Part shown: positions 5,275 through 24,826 of the stretch, one piece after another
Position numbering within the stretch: position 1 is the first letter of the stretch
Layout: each line of letters begins with the position of its first letter
IMG/VR virus record: IMGVR_UViG_3300021364_000949
Span: 1 to 31,029 of that record
Origin: a virus
Reading direction: 5' to 3' (one strand)
DNA length: 31,029 bases
Notes under the pieces: generated by a model
What the model was told of the DNA's origin: nothing
Databases searched by the model: none
Seen by the model: only the letters and a program-made list of their open reading frames with translations
Translations under genes and position numbers: made by a program

Positions 5275-6570
5275 ATGGCAGAGTTAAAGTCTACTAAAGC
5301 ATTTGGCGATTTTGCAGTTGATGGTATTTTGTACGATAGTTTCGGCAACTCTGGAACTTCTGGACAAGTATTAAAATCTACTGGTACTGGAACACAATGG
5401 GGTAGTGCCCCTACTGGTGGAAGTGGTATATCTTATGTAACAGGGACATCAAATTCTAATCCAGGCACATCAAGTTTTACATTAAGTGGACTTCAGCCAG
5501 GAGATTTCGTTCTTTATTTTGGTGCCGAAGATCTCGCTAGTCTGAATACACCCACTGGTGAAAACTGGACTGCTGTGCCAGGATTAAGTACTCAACCTGA
5601 TAATAATAGTAATCCGAATAGTGCAGCATTTTATGTTTTTGCTGCTGGAACATCAGTAACGGCAAGTGGATTAGCAACTGGGCAGGCCGAGGTCCATGTC
5701 ATGATTGCATTTAGAAATGTAAATCCTGTAAATCCATTTGATGTGAATGCTGTTGGAAATTCTGCCACTTCTGGTGTACCCAATCCACCATCAATTACTC
5801 CAGTCACTGATAATTCTATGATTGTTGCTGTGGGTCTTCTGGATGATGAAAACATTGCAAACAGTATCAGTCCTCCAACTGGATATACAACGGCATTAAA
5901 TATGGATTCTCTGGGTGGAGCAAATAATGCTGGTCTTGGTGGTGCAACCATTATGACTGCATACAAATTCTTAGCAACTGCAGCAGCAGAAAATCCTGGT
6001 GCCTTTGTATCATCTAATTCTAGTGCTGGTGATCCTAACAAGGGAATTACAATAGCACTTAGACCAAAAACAACTGCTGTGAGTGCTTACCTTTTAGCAA
6101 ATGGTGGTGGTACTGATGATAGAATAGAAAACACAGATACAACGGCAACTGGTGTTGATGACAACTGGTTAAATCCTACATGGTTAAGTACATCACAAAC
6201 CAGTGACAACATATCAGGATTTGATCAACCTACCACGACTCAAGTTACTGTTCCTGCCACTGGAATTTATATTGTTAATGTTAATTTAGAAATTAATACT
6301 GGTGGAGCAGGAACAAATGATAGATTGGGTCCTGAGGTTGTTCTTCTTGTAAATTCCACAAGAGAAGCGTATCGTGCCTCAAATTCTTATCTCAGATCAA
6401 CTGGTGGACATGAAGAAACCAGTTCAAATCAATCAACTATTTTATCATTGACTGCTGGTGATACAGTTGCTATTCAATGGAGACCTACATGTACTGGAAG
6501 AAATAATGCTAATGCAGATTCAGTTATGGATAATGATCGTAGTTTTATAGATTTAATTAGAATTGCATAG
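5275..6570 (+). CDS. Modular tail-fibre paralogue 1: beta-sandwich middle, C1q/TNF-like C terminus
   Basis: 431 residues. The N terminus (1-45; MAELKSTK, then a GNSGTSGQVLKSTG stretch) is shared in pattern with the two genes that follow (MAKLKQTK and MAKFKTKT, each followed by a G-G/T-SGQ segment), suggesting a common attachment tag. Residues about 53-263 have the look of a phage adhesin beta-sandwich (FTLSGLQPGDFVLYFG, PPTGYTT and ITIALRP strands). Residues about 270-431 resemble a C1q/TNF-type jelly roll: TVPATGIYIVNVN, then an ILSLTAGDTVAIQ strand and a final SFIDLIRIA strand, a layout used for trimeric fibre tips. There is no recognisable Shine-Dalgarno before the ATG, so translation may be coupled or leader-short. 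Function as a receptor-binding or fibre protein is inferred. Confidence 0.7.
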   Translation: MAELKSTKAFGDFAVDGILYDSFGNSGTSGQVLKSTGTGTQWGSAPTGGSGISYVTGTSNSNPGTSSFTLSGLQPGDFVLYFGAEDLASLNTPTGENWTAVPGLSTQPDNNSNPNSAAFYVFAAGTSVTASGLATGQAEVHVMIAFRNVNPVNPFDVNAVGNSATSGVPNPPSITPVTDNSMIVAVGLLDDENIANSISPPTGYTTALNMDSLGGANNAGLGGATIMTAYKFLATAAAENPGAFVSSNSSAGDPNKGITIALRPKTTAVSAYLLANGGGTDDRIENTDTTATGVDDNWLNPTWLSTSQTSDNISGFDQPTTTQVTVPATGIYIVNVNLEINTGGAGTNDRLGPEVVLLVNSTREAYRASNSYLRSTGGHEETSSNQSTILSLTAGDTVAIQWRPTCTGRNNANADSVMDNDRSFIDLIRIA

Positions 6571-14256: not shown

Positions 14257-15960
14257 ATGAGTGATGTAAAATTAAATCAAAATCAAATTTATCTTGGTAA
14301 TCCCAATCTAAAAAAGGTTGGTGTACCTATTAATTTTACCAAGAATCAAATTAAAGAATATTTAAAATGCAAAGAAGATCCTGTCTATTTTGCTAAAAAT
14401 TATTGCAAGATTGTTTCACTAGATGAAGGTCTTGTTCCATTTAAATTATATGATTTCCAGGAAGATATGGTTCGCCGCTTCCATGCAAATCGATTCAATA
14501 TTGCTAAGTTACCACGACAGACTGGCAAATCAACAACTGTTGTTGCATATCTTATGCATTATGCAATATTTAATGATAATGTCAATATTGGTATACTAGC
14601 AAACAAGGCACCGACTGCGAGAGAACTTCTCGGTAGGTTACAACTTGCTTACGAAAACTTGCCTGTATGGTTACAGCAAGGTATAATAGCATGGAATAAA
14701 GGTTCTATGGAGTTGGAAAATGGCAGTAAGATATTGGCATCTTCTACATCTGCGTCTGCTGTCCGAGGCATGTCGTTTAACATCATCTTCCTCGATGAGT
14801 TTGCGTTCATTCCAAACCATGTTGCAGAACAATTCTTTGCCTCTGTTTATCCTACTATTTCTTCTGGTAAAAGCACAAAAGTCATCATCATCTCAACGCC
14901 GAACGGGATGAACATGTTCTACAAGTTATGGCATGATGCCGAACTTGGTAGAAACGAATATGTTACCACAGAAGTTCACTGGTCACAAGTTCCAGGAAGG
15001 GATGATGCATGGAAACAACAAACTATCGCAAACACATCTGAACGACAGTTCACACAAGAATTTGAATGTGAATTTCTAGGATCAGTAGATACATTGATCT
15101 CAGCAACTAAGTTGAGATCAATGGTTTATGAGGAACCAATCAGACAAGGTTCAGGTCTTAAAACATATGAAGATCCAATAGAAGATCATGAATATTTGAT
15201 GACTGTTGACGTAGCAAGAGGTACTAATAATGATTACTCAGCATTTATTCTATACGATATTACAACAGTTCCATACAAAGTAGTAGGCACTTATAAGAAC
15301 AACCAAATTAAACCTATGTTGTTCCCTAATATTATTAATCAAGTATCTTTAAACTATAACAAAGCATTTGTATTATGTGAAGTTAATGATATCGGAGATC
15401 AGGTAGCATCAATCCTTCAATATGATTTGGAGAATGAAAATCTATTGATGTGTTCTATGAGAGGCAGAGCAGGACAAATTGTAGGACAAGGATTCTCAGG
15501 TACTAAAACTCAACTTGGAGTTAAAACTAGTACAACAGTAAAGAAAATTGGTTGTTCTAATTTAAAACAATTAATTGAAGCAGATAAACTTCTTATAAAT
15601 GATTATGATATTATCTCAGAATTAACTACATTTATTCAGAAAAAGCAATCATTTGAAGCAGAAGAAGGTTGTAATGATGACCTTGCAATGTGCTTGGTAA
15701 TTTTTGCGTGGTTAGTTGCACAAGATTACTTTAAAGAGATGACAGATAATGATGTTCGTAAAAGATTATATGACGAACAAAAGAATCAAATTGACCAAGA
15801 CATGGCACCTTTTGGATTTATTGATAATGGAATTGATGAAGATGTTCAAGTTGATAATGAAGGTAGTGTTTGGTACATTACACAAGATGGTAAGGGATCT
15901 TATTCAGATTCTTATCCCAGTGAATATGGTGACATGAATTACATGTGGGAATACCGATGA
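14257..15960 (+). CDS. 17: Terminase large subunit gp17
   Basis: 567 residues from ATG 14257. A longer in-frame start at 14182 would overlap the Cys-knuckle gene and is not preferred; the chosen start has GAGATGGGA upstream and the usual MSDVKLNQNQ opening. N-terminal ATPase: Walker A LPRQTGKST at about 85-93 and Walker B IIFLDE at about 176-181, followed by a coupling motif STPNGMN. The C-terminal RNase H-like nuclease has TVDVARG (Asp near 318) and NDDLA (Asp near 474-475) as metal-binding acids. The protein is the DNA packaging motor, docking on the portal gp20, and makes the headful cut. It is shorter at the N terminus than T4 gp17 (610 residues), as in cyanophages. In T4, 16 and 17 overlap; here three small genes lie between them. 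Confidence 0.95.
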   Translation: MSDVKLNQNQIYLGNPNLKKVGVPINFTKNQIKEYLKCKEDPVYFAKNYCKIVSLDEGLVPFKLYDFQEDMVRRFHANRFNIAKLPRQTGKSTTVVAYLMHYAIFNDNVNIGILANKAPTARELLGRLQLAYENLPVWLQQGIIAWNKGSMELENGSKILASSTSASAVRGMSFNIIFLDEFAFIPNHVAEQFFASVYPTISSGKSTKVIIISTPNGMNMFYKLWHDAELGRNEYVTTEVHWSQVPGRDDAWKQQTIANTSERQFTQEFECEFLGSVDTLISATKLRSMVYEEPIRQGSGLKTYEDPIEDHEYLMTVDVARGTNNDYSAFILYDITTVPYKVVGTYKNNQIKPMLFPNIINQVSLNYNKAFVLCEVNDIGDQVASILQYDLENENLLMCSMRGRAGQIVGQGFSGTKTQLGVKTSTTVKKIGCSNLKQLIEADKLLINDYDIISELTTFIQKKQSFEAEEGCNDDLAMCLVIFAWLVAQDYFKEMTDNDVRKRLYDEQKNQIDQDMAPFGFIDNGIDEDVQVDNEGSVWYITQDGKGSYSDSYPSEYGDMNYMWEYR

Positions 15961-19107: not shown

Positions 19108-19761
19108 ATGGCAAACATTATCGATTTCAAATCTAGATTAAAGGGCGGCGTTCGCCCTAATCTATACCAGATTGAAATTCCATTTCCAGAAATAAATTTC
19201 GATCTTGGTAGAGGACCAGGAATACAAGATTTAGTAAAGAATACTAAATTTCTCTGCAGATCTGCACAGATTCCTGCAACAAATCAAGGACTCATTGAAG
19301 TTCCATTTAGAGGACGTTTTTTAAAGGTTCCTGGCGATAGAACTTTTGAAGCATGGACTGCAACTTTCTACAATACATCAGATTTTGATTTAAGAGCAGC
19401 ATTTGAGCAGTGGATTAATGTTGGTAATAAAACCGACGAAAATCTTGGAACTTTTGACTTTGGTTCTGCAGGTGACTTTGGGGGATACTTTAAAGATATT
19501 ACTATCAGACAATTAGACAAAAATATTGAATCTGATGGAATTAGAGCAGTTGCAACTGGTCAAAAAGAAGATCCCAATAAAGTTCTTAGAGTTTATAAAT
19601 TGATTGGTGCATGGCCAACTAGTGTTGGTGCTATTAATTTATCATATGATAGTAATGATCAGATTGAAGAATTTGATGTAGAATTCCAGTACCAATATCT
19701 TGATGCAGATCAAGAAGAGTTTAGTGCAGGTAAAGGTGAATTTACCAGTTTTAATAGTTGA
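19108..19761 (+). CDS. 19: Tail tube protein gp19
   Basis: 217 residues with GGGAG about ten bases before the ATG. The opening IIDFKSRLKGGVRPNLYQIEIPFP and the LCRSAQIPATNQGLIEVPFRGR segment are diagnostic for the gp19 tube family; WTATFYNTSDFDLRAAFEQWIN is the conserved central stretch. Hexameric rings of gp19 stack to form the inner tube through which DNA passes and which the sheath drives into the cell. It is somewhat longer than T4 gp19 (163 residues), with an extended C-terminal region. A bulged 12-base-pair hairpin (19134-19164) lies in codons 9-19. Confidence 0.93.
   Translation: MANIIDFKSRLKGGVRPNLYQIEIPFPEINFDLGRGPGIQDLVKNTKFLCRSAQIPATNQGLIEVPFRGRFLKVPGDRTFEAWTATFYNTSDFDLRAAFEQWINVGNKTDENLGTFDFGSAGDFGGYFKDITIRQLDKNIESDGIRAVATGQKEDPNKVLRVYKLIGAWPTSVGAINLSYDSNDQIEEFDVEFQYQYLDADQEEFSAGKGEFTSFNS
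19134..19164 (+). other. Bulged 12-bp hairpin at the start of gene 19
   Basis: TAGATTA at 19134-19140 pairs with TAATCTA at 19158-19164, and GGGCG at 19143-19147 pairs with CGCCC at 19153-19157, leaving an AA bulge and a five-base loop. It is GC-rich against an AT-rich background and lies 26-56 bases downstream of the ATG. Confidence 0.6.
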
Positions 19762-19771
19762 TATTTAGTTT

Positions 19772-19779
19772 ACTAAATA
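19772..19779 (+). promoter_or_regulatory. Possible late promoter box ACTAAATA for gene 20
   Basis: It matches TATAAATA at 6 of 8 positions, in the 43-base gap between genes 19 and 20, 25 bases before the gp20 ATG. The same variant occurs before the gp67-like gene, which supports its being functional. Confidence 0.45.
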
Positions 19780-19804
19780 GATTAAAGGTACGTTCATATT
19801 TGGA

Positions 19805-21403
19805 ATGGCGAAGTTATTTGGATTTTCAATAGATAAAGAAGATCTTAAACAGGGGGCGAAATCACCTTCGTCCCCTGTTCCACCTACTGATAATGATGCA
19901 ACATCCGCCATAACTCCATATGGCGGATGGTTTGGTCATTATGTAGATCTTGACGGAGTTAAACATAGAGATGAGTTAAATCTCATCCGAAAATATAGAG
20001 AAATGGCATTGTCCCCTGAGGTAGATAGTGCTATAGAAGATATCACAAATGAGGCAATTGTTTCTGATAAAGATGACAGTCCGGTAGAATTAGAACTGTC
20101 AAATTTACAAGTTTCAGACTCTATTAAAACTAGCATGAGAAATGAGTTTGAGCATGTCAAACGTTTGCTAGATTTTGATAAAAATGCACATCAAATTTTT
20201 AAACGTTGGTATGTTGATGGAAGAATTTACTATCATAAAGTTATAGATCTAGATGATTCTTCCAAAGGAATTTTAGAACTTAGATATATTGATCCTTTAA
20301 AAATTAAAAAATATAGATACGTTCAAAAACCACCACAAAATTCAGACGAATTTAATAGGTATGATTATGGTGCAGTTACTGAATTTTATGTTTATAATAA
20401 TAAAGGAATAAACAGTAGCAATCAGGGAATTAAGATTGCAAAAGATGCCATTGCATCAGTAACTTCTGGCATTACCGACCAAGGTAGAAATATTACTTTA
20501 AGTCATCTTCATAAAGCAATTAAATCTTTAAACCAACTTAAAATGTTGGAAGATAGTATTGTAATTTATCGTTTATCAAGAGCACCTGAACGCCGCATCT
20601 TTTATATTGATGTTGGTAATCTTCCAAAAGTAAAGGCAGAACAATATCTTCGTGATGTAATGTCACGTTACAGAAATAAACTTGTCTATGATTCCTCAAC
20701 TGGAGAAATGCGTGATGATAAAAAACACATGTCAATTTTAGAAGATTATTGGTTGCCTCGTCGTGAAGGTGGACGTGGTACAGAAATTACTACACTTCCT
20801 GGTGGACAAAATCTTGGTGAACTGACAGACATTAAGTATTTTCAAACTCAAGTTTACAAGGCACTTAACGTACCTTCTTCCAGACTTGAAAGTGATAAAT
20901 CATTTGATCTTGGAAAGTCTGAAGAAATCAACAGAGATGAAATTAAATTTACTAAATTTGTGGGTCGTCTCCGTAAAAAGTTTTCTGATCTTCTCCATGA
21001 CTTATTAAAAACTCAATTAATATTAAAAGGAGTTATTACATATTCAGATTGGGAAGAGTTTAAAGAGCATATTCAATACGATTTTCTTTATGATAATCAA
21101 TTTGCCGAAATGGCAAATCTTGAAATGCTTGAAAAGAAAATGGAAGTATTAGATAAAGTTGATCTTTATGTTGGTAAATACTTCTCTCAAGATTATGTTA
21201 TGAGACAACTTCTTCAATTTACAGAACAAGAAATTGAAGAAATGAAATCTCAGATAAATAATGAAATTAAGGCAGGTCAAGTTATTGATCCTCTTAATGT
21301 TGTGGATCAAGAAAAGCAAAGTGCTGAACTTGATCTGGAAACTAAAAAAGTTTCCGTAAATAATATGAAAAATCCAACTGCACCAACACCAGTAGGAAAC
21401 TAA
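19805..21403 (+). CDS. 20: Portal vertex protein gp20
   Basis: 532 residues (T4 gp20 has 524). The MAKLFGFSI opening, SPVPPTDND, and the HYVDLDGVKHRDELNLIRKYREMALSPEVDSAIEDITNEAI segment are characteristic of the cyanophage portal. Later hallmarks are SRAPERRIFYIDVGNLPK, YRNKLVYDSSTGE, EDYWLPRREGGRGTEITTLPGG and LNVPSSRLE. The portal forms a dodecamer at one vertex, nucleates the prohead, and is the channel onto which gp17 docks. The start has only a weak, distant AAAGG upstream, in keeping with a low copy number. Codons 15-42 carry two strong tandem hairpins (separate entry). Confidence 0.95.
   Translation: MAKLFGFSIDKEDLKQGAKSPSSPVPPTDNDATSAITPYGGWFGHYVDLDGVKHRDELNLIRKYREMALSPEVDSAIEDITNEAIVSDKDDSPVELELSNLQVSDSIKTSMRNEFEHVKRLLDFDKNAHQIFKRWYVDGRIYYHKVIDLDDSSKGILELRYIDPLKIKKYRYVQKPPQNSDEFNRYDYGAVTEFYVYNNKGINSSNQGIKIAKDAIASVTSGITDQGRNITLSHLHKAIKSLNQLKMLEDSIVIYRLSRAPERRIFYIDVGNLPKVKAEQYLRDVMSRYRNKLVYDSSTGEMRDDKKHMSILEDYWLPRREGGRGTEITTLPGGQNLGELTDIKYFQTQVYKALNVPSSRLESDKSFDLGKSEEINRDEIKFTKFVGRLRKKFSDLLHDLLKTQLILKGVITYSDWEEFKEHIQYDFLYDNQFAEMANLEMLEKKMEVLDKVDLYVGKYFSQDYVMRQLLQFTEQEIEEMKSQINNEIKAGQVIDPLNVVDQEKQSAELDLETKKVSVNNMKNPTAPTPVGN
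19848..19879 (+). other. Strong 13-bp RNA hairpin inside the gene 20 start region (hairpin 1)
   Basis: AACAGGGGGCGAA at 19848-19860 pairs with TTCGTCCCCTGTT at 19867-19879, with a six-base loop (ATCACC) and a single G-U pair. It lies 43-74 bases downstream of the portal start codon and uses unusual GGG and GCG codons. No T-run follows, so it is not a classical terminator. Confidence 0.75.
19902..19929 (+). other. Perfect 11-bp RNA hairpin inside the gene 20 start region (hairpin 2)
   Basis: CATCCGCCATA at 19902-19912 pairs without mismatch with TATGGCGGATG at 19919-19929 across a six-base loop (ACTCCA). It is 22 bases downstream of hairpin 1 and has the same loop length. Confidence 0.75.
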
Positions 21404-22299: not shown

Positions 22300-23334
22300 A
22301 TGTCAGCATCGGTTGACCAGAAATTTGAAACTTTCGTAGAGGAAACTCTTGAAGAGAAGGCACCAACCGATGGTGCTGGCAAGGCAGATCCAATGCAAAA
22401 ATTGGATACTCCTGCTCCTCAAGATACATCTAAGGAAGATCTGGGCGGTCCTACCAACCAGAACTACAAGAATGACAACAACTCTGCAAAGATTGCTAAC
22501 AAGGGTACATCCCAAGTTCACGATCAAAATACTAAGAGTGCCACACCTGGCGACTCTGCTGCAAAGAAAATGAAAGAAGAAGGAGAGGTTGAAGGTGAAG
22601 TAGTTGCTGAAACTACTGAAACCGAATCTTTCTCAGTCGATGAAGATGTTACCGCACTCTTGACTGGCGAAGAACTTTCCGAAGAATTCCAAGAAAAGGC
22701 ACGTACAATCTTCACCGCAGCAGTCACTTCTAGACTTGCTGAAGAAACCAAGAAGATTGAAGAGTCTTACGAGGCACGTTTTTCTGAGCAAGTTGAAGAG
22801 TTCAAAACTGAACTTGCTGAGAAAATGGATAAGTTCCTCAACTATGTTGCTGAGGAATGGAAAAAGGAGAACGAAATCGAACTCCATAACGGCATCAAAT
22901 TAGAGATGGCGGAAAATATGATGCTTAAAATGAAGCAACTTTTTGAAGAAAATTATGTAGAAATCCCTGAAGAGAGATATAATGTTATGCAAGAGATGAC
23001 AGACAAATTAGATGAGATGGAAGAAAAGCTCAATGAGCAAATTGAAGTAAGTATGTCACTTCACGCTGAGAAGTCTGCTCTTGTAAAAGAGCGTATGATC
23101 TCAGAAGCATCGAAGGGTCTTGCTCAAACCCAAGCAGAGAAGCTTGCTTCTCTTGCAGAAGGAATTGAGTTTGATTCTGAGGAATCCTTTACAGAAAAAC
23201 TTACTACCGTTAAGGAAAGTTATTTCCCTAAAGAAGAAGTTCAACTGAAGGAAGATATTGCAACTGATGTTGCAAAAACTATTGATGATCCACGTATGGC
23301 AGCATACGTAAGAGCAATTAATGCTCAACGCTGA
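22300..23334 (+). CDS. 22: Prohead scaffold core protein gp22
   Basis: 344 residues with AAAGGAG upstream. The N-terminal third is a charged, low-complexity segment (TDGAGKADPMQKLDTPAPQDTSKEDLGG), followed by long acidic coiled-coil helices (about 125-290, with LAEETKKIEESYEARFSEQVEEFKTELAEKMDKFL-type heptads). The C terminus ends MAAYVRAINAQR, the conserved gp22 ending. gp22 assembles inside the prohead as the scaffold around which gp23 polymerises and is then digested by gp21. It is longer than T4 gp22 (269 residues), mostly because of the N-terminal segment. An inverted repeat (22307-22315 with 22364-22372) encloses a GAAA-loop mini-hairpin near its start. Confidence 0.92.
   Translation: MSASVDQKFETFVEETLEEKAPTDGAGKADPMQKLDTPAPQDTSKEDLGGPTNQNYKNDNNSAKIANKGTSQVHDQNTKSATPGDSAAKKMKEEGEVEGEVVAETTETESFSVDEDVTALLTGEELSEEFQEKARTIFTAAVTSRLAEETKKIEESYEARFSEQVEEFKTELAEKMDKFLNYVAEEWKKENEIELHNGIKLEMAENMMLKMKQLFEENYVEIPEERYNVMQEMTDKLDEMEEKLNEQIEVSMSLHAEKSALVKERMISEASKGLAQTQAEKLASLAEGIEFDSEESFTEKLTTVKESYFPKEEVQLKEDIATDVAKTIDDPRMAAYVRAINAQR
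22307..22372 (+). other. Long-loop inverted repeat at the start of gene 22
   Basis: CATCGGTTG at 22307-22315 is the exact reverse complement of CAACCGATG at 22364-22372; outside it, CAGC can pair with GCTG across a three-base bulge. The 48-base interior contains AGAG-GAAA-CTCT, a short stem with a GNRA loop. Its function is unknown, and the long loop makes it less certain than the gene 20 hairpins. Confidence 0.4.
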
Positions 23335-23377: not shown

Positions 23378-24826
23378 ATGTTAGGTATTTCCCAACAACT
23401 CCAGGAAAAATGGAATGATGTTCTGTCCGCTGAAGGTGCAGAACCAATTACAGATCCTTATAAGAGAGCTGTTACTTCCGTCCTCCTGGAAAATCAACAA
23501 AAGGTAACCGACGCTGAAAGACAGATCCTGTCTGAGGCAGGTGCAACCATCACCACTGGTTCAAACGCTGCTGCTGGTGCAGGTACAGGCATCGCTGGTT
23601 TCAGTTCTGACGCTGCTGTTGGCGGTCCTGTTGCTGGTTTCGACCCTGTACTGATCTCAATGATCCGTCGTTCGATGCCAAACCTGGTCGCTTATGACCT
23701 CGCAGGCGTTCAACCAATGTCTGGTCCTACTGGACTGATCTTTGCAATGCGTGCGAAGCTTGATGACCAAAGCGGTGCTGAAACCTTCTACGATGAAGTT
23801 AACACCAACCAGTCTGGTCTTGGTGGTGCTGAAGATGTTTCTGGTGCTGGTCCTACCAACACTGGCGACAACCCTGCAGTATTGAATGACGTTTTTGGCG
23901 ATAACGAAGCAACTCGCCAGGCACGTTACACCACTGGTGTAGGCATGGGTACTGACGTTGCTGAAGGACTCGACAGCGACGGTGCTAACCCTGATTTCAG
24001 AGAGATGGGATTCGGTATCGAGAAGGTCTCGGTAACCGCTAAGTCACGCGCTCTGAAAGCATCCTACAGTCTTGAGCTTGCACAAGACCTGCGTGCTATT
24101 CACGGTCTTGATGCTGAGTCGGAACTGGCAAACATCCTTTCTGCTGAGATCCTTGCTGAGATCAACAGAGAAGTTGTCAGAACTGTTTACAAGTCTGCTA
24201 CTCGTGGTGCTCAAATTGACACTGCAAACCCAGGAATCTTTGACATGGACGTTGACTCCAACGGACGTTGGTCTGTTGAGAAGTTCAAGGGTCTCATGTT
24301 CCAAATCGAGCGTGACGCAAACGTAATCGCACGTCAAACTCGTCGCGGAAAGGGCAACATCATCATGTGCTCTGCTGACGTTGCATCTGCACTTGCTGCT
24401 GCTGGTCAACTCGACTATGCACCTGCTCTGGAAGGCAACAACCGTCTCCAGGTAGATGACACTGGTAACACCTTCGCTGGTGTTCTCAACGGTCGCTATC
24501 GCGTCTATATCGATCCTTATGCAACCATCACTCGTGGTGGAACTGGATCTGCTTCTGGTAACAACTACTACGTTGTTGGTTATAAGGGCACTTCTGCATA
24601 TGACGCTGGCATGTTCTACTGCCCATATGTACCTCTCCAGATGGTACGTAGCGTTGGCGCTGAAGACTTCCAGCCACGTATCGGGTTTAAGACTCGTTAT
24701 GGCATGGTACTCAACCCATTCGCTAAGGGTGCAACTGATGTTACTGCTAATGCAGATCCTCTGGCAGCAGGTAACCTCGGTACTAACGTATACTACAGAA
24801 GAACTTCTGTTGCAAACCTCATGTGA
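23378..24826 (+). CDS. 23: Major capsid protein gp23
   Basis: 482 residues with CCGGAG upstream. MLGISQQLQEKWNDVLS, DPYKRAVTSVLLENQ and the FDPVLISMIRRSMPNLVAYDLAGVQPMSGPTGLIFAMRA block are hallmarks of T4-like gp23. A maturation cut after Glu53 is expected (ILSE-AGA, the (L/I)xE-A gp21 consensus), releasing a 53-residue propeptide. gp23 hexamers build the elongated or isometric head; no gp24 gene is present here, as is usual in cyanophages. The gene is visibly more GC-rich at third codon positions than all neighbours (AAC, GAC, TTC, ATC preferred), consistent with selection for very high expression. No clear TATAAATA box is seen directly upstream. A strong terminator follows. Confidence 0.97.
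   Translation: MLGISQQLQEKWNDVLSAEGAEPITDPYKRAVTSVLLENQQKVTDAERQILSEAGATITTGSNAAAGAGTGIAGFSSDAAVGGPVAGFDPVLISMIRRSMPNLVAYDLAGVQPMSGPTGLIFAMRAKLDDQSGAETFYDEVNTNQSGLGGAEDVSGAGPTNTGDNPAVLNDVFGDNEATRQARYTTGVGMGTDVAEGLDSDGANPDFREMGFGIEKVSVTAKSRALKASYSLELAQDLRAIHGLDAESELANILSAEILAEINREVVRTVYKSATRGAQIDTANPGIFDMDVDSNGRWSVEKFKGLMFQIERDANVIARQTRRGKGNIIMCSADVASALAAAGQLDYAPALEGNNRLQVDDTGNTFAGVLNGRYRVYIDPYATITRGGTGSASGNNYYVVGYKGTSAYDAGMFYCPYVPLQMVRSVGAEDFQPRIGFKTRYGMVLNPFAKGATDVTANADPLAAGNLGTNVYYRRTSVANLM

Follow-up and report, generated by a model that had tools for sequence, protein, structure and literature searches.

The downstream loop of alphaviruses is a eukaryotic example of an intragenic mRNA hairpin located close to a start codon, which it marks and from where it tunes translation. 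Paired promoter-proximal hairpins are found in the put RNA of phage HK022, a processive antitermination element that acts via conserved sequence contacts with RNA polymerase. Closer to the viruses treated here, a hairpin was described in the 5'-UTR of the psbA transcript of cyanomyovirus S-PM2, which carries a late-promoter site, and a role in mRNA stability was proposed for it (PMC5931967).

The element concentrated on in the following sections lies at the start of gene 20, encoding the portal vertex protein, in marine cyanobacterial T4-like viruses. With the alphavirus loop it shares a stable hairpin in the coding region of a viral structural gene soon after the start codon, but it belongs to a bacterial virus translated by 70S ribosomes, its stem sequence varies between lineages, and its effect on translation is a putative one. 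As in put, paired promoter-proximal hairpins occur in a phage transcript; unlike those of put, the stems of gene 20 lie within the coding region and are not conserved in sequence. GC-rich stems are also shared with intrinsic terminators and attenuators, from which the gene 20 stems differ in lacking a U-run and in belonging to a gene that must be read through. The psbA hairpin likewise resides on a late-promoter transcript of a cyanomyovirus; in contrast to that of gene 20, it is situated in the non-coding leader of a host-derived gene, outside codons (PMC5931967).

Two hairpins at the start of a cyanophage portal gene

The window, i.e. the whole stretch of 31,029 nt that was analysed, comes from an IMG/VR record and represents a T4-like cyanophage contig of 31 kb, on which genes 18-19-20-21-22-23 follow one another in this order. 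Its features around the start of gene 20 are summarized in Table 1. Hairpin 1 (hp1, 19848-19879) reads AACAGGGGGCGAA-AUCACC-UUCGUCCCCUGUU and includes one G-U pair; hairpin 2 (hp2, 19902-19929) reads CAUCCGCCAUA-ACUCCA-UAUGGCGGAUG and is formed by Watson-Crick pairs only. Both have six-base loops, 22 nt separate them, and their pair probabilities range from 0.75 to 1.00 when the entire beginning of the message is folded. Folding was computed at 37 °C; at marine temperatures, the stems would be more stable. The hairpin codons precede, or sit at the edge of, the gp20 residues alignable to solved T4 portal chains, and amino-acid changes are probably cheap there.

Table 1. Features at the gene 19-20 junction of the window
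Feature	Position	Strand	Basis and remarks
Gene 19 (tail tube)	19108..19761	+	ORF list; gene order matching annotated cyanophages; Shine-Dalgarno strong, -7.4 kcal/mol
CTAAATA, predicted T4-type late promoter core for gene 20	19773..19779	+	[AC]TAAATA upstream in 297/297 relatives; S-PM2 late consensus
Weak ribosome-binding region TTTGGA, gene 20	19799..19804	+	-4.0 kcal/mol in the window; median -0.6 in relatives
Gene 20, portal vertex protein, 532 aa	19805..21403	+	ORF list; T4 gp20 structures match residues 35-497
hp1 5' arm, codons K-Q-G-A-K	19848..19860	+	Sequence, folding
hp1 3' arm, codons P-S-S-P-V	19867..19879	+	Sequence, folding; clade stem pairing; 13 bp, -21.5 kcal/mol
hp2 5' arm, codons T-S-A-I	19902..19912	+	Inverted-repeat search, folding
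hp2 3' arm, codons Y-G-G-W	19919..19929	+	Inverted-repeat search, folding, relatives; 11 bp, -17.4 kcal/mol

The two hairpins had been noticed in a sequence-only reading of this DNA, whose coordinates, pair counts, G-U pair, loops and spacing were all reproduced. Its impression that the stems use rare codons was borne out as well, GGG accounting for 3% of Gly and GCG for 3% of Ala codons in this phage, and so was the lack of a T-run in the window sequence after either stem (19879, 19929). An intrinsic terminator was rejected as a candidate, neither stem being followed by a U-run.

The stability of this segment exceeds what base composition and codon usage provide. None of 200 dinucleotide shuffles of 19780-19980 was as stable (z -5.43), and under shuffling of synonymous codons, with the phage's own codon usage as null, none of the other windows among the 883 coding ones is as extreme as the 120 nt at 19835 (z -7.76; the next gene reaches -5.28). 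The proposed comparison with codon-shuffled versions hence placed the folding energy far outside the shuffled distribution, in the window as in its relatives. The rarity claimed earlier for perfect 11-bp, short-spaced repeats was overstated, as two others with 10-nt spacers, AT-richer and also inside coding genes, are present at 15092-15123 and 21210-21241; what stands out at gene 20 is the stability, GC content, tandem placement and conservation. Elsewhere in the window, the next strongest synonymous-shuffle signal belongs to the scaffold gene 22 (22720-22930, z about -5), and several stretches of the major capsid gene 23 (23678-24370), GC-richer than the rest, beat codon shuffles with z -4 to -5.

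Conserved position and replaced stems among relatives

Relatives were drawn from IMG/VR and isolates; 300 genes were left once those with more than 95% similarity in their first 240 nt had been discarded. Over codons 11-43 of gene 20 (nt 31-129), the mean synonymous-shuffle z of these non-redundant genes is about -4.9, with 86% below -3. The signal is confined to the gene start: 99-nt windows beginning at nt 0, 30 and 60 show mean z of -3.4, -4.9 and -2.7, and those further downstream lie at background level, between -0.4 and -1.75 (n=300). Permutation of codons within the first 60 only still yields a mean z of -3.66, at most 1 of 60 shuffles being as stable in 84% of the genes. The same stretch is ordinary in the neighbouring genes (gene 19 mean z -1.86, gene 21 -1.58), so that the signal is specific to gene 20. 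The beginning of gene 20 ranks first among 998 windows covering 41 kb in S-SM2 (z -8.7); its signal in S-PM2 is of moderate strength (z about -3) and is exceeded elsewhere. The most extreme of 918 windows in S-PM2 is a 99-nt window starting 30 nt into gene 3 (L493:25858-25957, z -9.8), with a possible pairing of CTATCTATCTCC with GGGGGTAGA.

The hairpin of marine cyanomyoviruses (Kyanoviridae) is found at about nt 35-100 after the start codon, mostly with -15 to -29 kcal/mol. A very stable hairpin at the start of the portal message is present in nearly all marine cyanobacterial T4-like viruses sampled, either kept or rebuilt with other letters. Little signal was seen in some genes (ACG-2014f, part of the P-HM2 group, and L060, a class I gene in which the stem is lost, -5.6 kcal/mol); L037, of the window clade, has lost hp1 and retained hp2. 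Sixteen T4-like genes obtained by a T4-type search, from phages of mainly enteric hosts, gave no gene 20 signal (mean z -0.7), and codon-shuffle folding detected none at the gene 20 start of Vibrio, Aeromonas and Acinetobacter phages. The pelagiphage HTVC008M, placed in the same family, shows only a moderate stem in gene 20 and a strong Shine-Dalgarno (SD) sequence. Its gene 19-20 gap (L521:5397-5418) harbors an inverted repeat, ATAGCGG-tctccggg-CCGCTAT, abutting the late promoter TATAAATA upstream of the portal gene, and this repeat possibly replaces the intragenic hairpin. The hairpin region matches no Rfam family at gathering score, and in the open-access literature searched, nothing relevant was found on a hairpin in gene 20 or on portal-mRNA structure.

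The pairing partners vary by lineage, with at least four unrelated stems (class labels were assigned in this analysis from peptide motifs). The paired codons are those for KEGQ and PVPP in class I (S-PM2, S-RIM32), SPVP and NEDG in class II (S-SM2, P-SSM2), RAKKVP and KGPSFV in class III (S-SM1, P-RSM1), and KGAK and SSPV, plus hp2, in class IV, the window clade; the remaining group (P-HM2 and others) is weaker, with a mean z of about -3. Neither a loop, nor a stem sequence, nor an internal-loop pattern is common between the classes. Lineages have kept the position of the hairpin but have repeatedly exchanged the sequence of its stem. The tandem arrangement emphasized earlier holds for the window clade, where hp2 is clear, and is class-specific, hp2 being weaker elsewhere. 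Two further signals in gene 20 are restricted to single classes: a second region at nt 600-699 in class III only (e.g. L089; z about -3.1) and a weak one at nt about 165-240 in class II (z about -2).

Covariation and the selected molecule

Since stems shift register, RNAalifold was unusable on the whole of classes I and II, and a fixed-register subset of 34 distinct stems was used for class I instead. Here, 91.7% of the cells are paired, and 39 cells are changed on both sides compared with a shuffled mean of 11.8 (0/500). The covariation score of 0.345 drops to 0.128 or less when the partner columns are displaced by 1-3 positions; when class I arms are re-dealt between genes, pairing falls from 0.795 in the natural combinations to 0.722, with 0.741 as the highest value. 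Examples of paired changes are Q to L (CAG to CTG) with CCT to CCA, TTG with CCA plus V to I (ATC), G to A (GCA) with GTC to GTG, and E to A (GCG) with CCT to CCG; many of the compensatory changes in this class alter the protein. Covariation is weaker in class II (pairing 0.761 versus at most 0.729 re-dealt). In the window clade (22 members), the consensus stems are paired in 97% of the cells versus at most 73% in synonymous shuffles; hp1 is almost invariant and hence uninformative on covariation. In hp2, CCGCC/GGCGG is changed to CCACC/GGTGG in relatives (G-C to A-U), and others with nearly the same protein form a shifted stem, ACCATCACTCC/GGGGGATGGT. The alignment of relatives called for by the sequence-only reading thus revealed stems that are conserved, or replaced with covariation, and together with the codon-shuffle nulls it strongly supports that reading's suspicion of selected RNA structure in early gene 20.

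The hairpins might also be a by-product of the protein sequence and codon bias, i.e. of a Pro/Gly-rich linker whose SPVPP and GGN codons are rich in C and G. This is extremely improbable: synonymous shuffles with the genes' own codons and permutations of the first 60 codons fail to reproduce the stability, and codons as well as amino acids change in a compensatory manner. A programmed frameshift or overlapping gene was rejected, as a second open frame across the hairpin is not consistently kept in relatives.

The strand on which selection acts was addressed by null-corrected folding. The sense strand beats its complement in 80% of the genes, and the averages of all classes point the same way. 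The overall p is 2e-32, computed as if the sequences were unrelated; as they do share ancestry, such p-values overstate independence. This comparison was used in place of counting GU against AC from Watson-Crick-only reference structures, which is confounded by register slips (0.84 in class I, 27.7 in class III). Better folding of the sense strand indicates that the mRNA is selected rather than a DNA cruciform or an antisense RNA, and both of these are disfavoured. A feature at the DNA level, such as a cruciform or a packaging or recombination site, would fit with the inverted repeats being present in the DNA and with the head genes lying near the terminase genes; it is very improbable, since a cruciform would not require the preference for sense over complement. 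The structure at the start of gene 20 is almost certainly selected in the mRNA.

Setting of gene 20 and possible effects on portal synthesis

A predicted late-promoter core, [AC]TAAATA, occurs at most 100 nt upstream of the gene 20 start in all relatives with enough upstream sequence, in nearly all of these 297 at -30 to -45. It matches the late promoter consensus of S-PM2, NATAAATA (PMC2984593). Such late-promoter-like cores are also located within 100 nt upstream of the window genes at 5275, 10559, 13543, 16275, 19108, 19805, 21432, 22300, 24908 and 25859. A dyad around the gene 20 late promoter gave a weak signal (mean z -0.7 to -1.6). The SD sequence of gene 20 is almost absent in relatives, 8% reaching -4 kcal/mol or below; that of gene 19 has a median of -7.2 kcal/mol, with 93% at or below -4. 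A strong stem near the start (codons 12-33) combined with a weak ribosome-binding site is present in most relatives.

T4-like phages face a real assembly problem in balancing a 12-copy portal against hundreds of capsid and tail subunits. The main reading, to which a probability of about 0.48 is assigned, is that the start-proximal mRNA hairpin and the weak ribosome-binding site together limit portal translation, acting as a mechanical throttle independent of sequence. A ribosome initiated at the weak gene 20 start would meet the stem within about 10-17 codons and pause at its foot, still over or just past the start region. Further initiation would be slowed, few ribosomes would load, and the portal (12 copies per virion) would be made far less than gp19 and gp23, though all are late genes. 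Of the roles suggested earlier, attenuation or pausing that keeps the portal low fits the context best, i.e. the gene's own late-promoter core, the near-absent SD sequence and the strong hairpin; the effect itself is inferred. Against a throttle, translating ribosomes can unwind such stems, the class II stem begins 54-62 nt after the start, a long distance for blocking initiation directly, and some genes, named above, have little signal. Alternatively, the hairpin and the weak SD sequence may compensate for each other.

A positive element would use the downstream stem to hold the small subunit or keep the start region open, marking the start codon where the SD sequence is almost absent. The co-occurrence of weak SD sequence and hairpin in most relatives and the weaker stem of HTVC008M, with its strong SD sequence, are in line with this role. 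It is nevertheless quite unlikely, because the stems begin 35-62 nt after the start, past the downstream reach of an initiating 30S subunit (about 19 nt), and because the window combines a moderate SD sequence with very strong stems.

The hairpin may alternatively be an operator, bound by gp20 or another phage or host RNA-binding protein that represses or times portal synthesis. Autoregulation of this sort is known for other phage and ribosomal proteins, and a strong conserved hairpin near a weak start is a typical operator layout. As loop, stem and internal-loop pattern differ between classes, however, the binding protein would need to change along each time, which makes an operator unlikely. 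The lack of any stem or loop sequence common to the lineages favours a mechanical role over sequence recognition, and the sequence-specific binding site proposed earlier has become less likely.

Similarly unlikely is an RNA stability element blocking 3'-to-5' exonucleases, by which read-through gene 18-19 messages would have their ends some 100 nt beyond gene 19 and be stabilized, resulting in high gp19 and low gp20. The location of the window hairpins about 85-165 nt past the gene 19 stop, the gene 19-20 gap (median 35 nt) and the inverted repeat that HTVC008M carries in this gap instead are consistent with it. Yet non-coding DNA would accommodate such an element more easily than codons, where keeping it costs amino-acid changes, gene 20 has its own promoter core, and ribosomes on gene 20 would disrupt the hairpin. 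Another option named earlier, RNA processing between genes 19 and 20, has no direct support.

Going beyond the throttle itself, it is tentatively proposed that the RNA element is specified by where it lies instead of by its sequence and has arisen anew in each cyanomyovirus lineage with other codons and even other amino acids, and that it may be a limiter of portal dosage dictating part of the N-terminal linker. Marine cyanophage diversity has classically been assessed with gene 20 as the marker, and a structured mRNA element at the start of this gene is undescribed in the open-access literature searched. RNA structure here steers protein evolution in a virion protein and biases codon use in a marker gene. 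The conserved hairpin suggests that the mRNA itself helps to set the amount of portal protein, and it provides a concrete cis-acting candidate for the balance of portal dosage.
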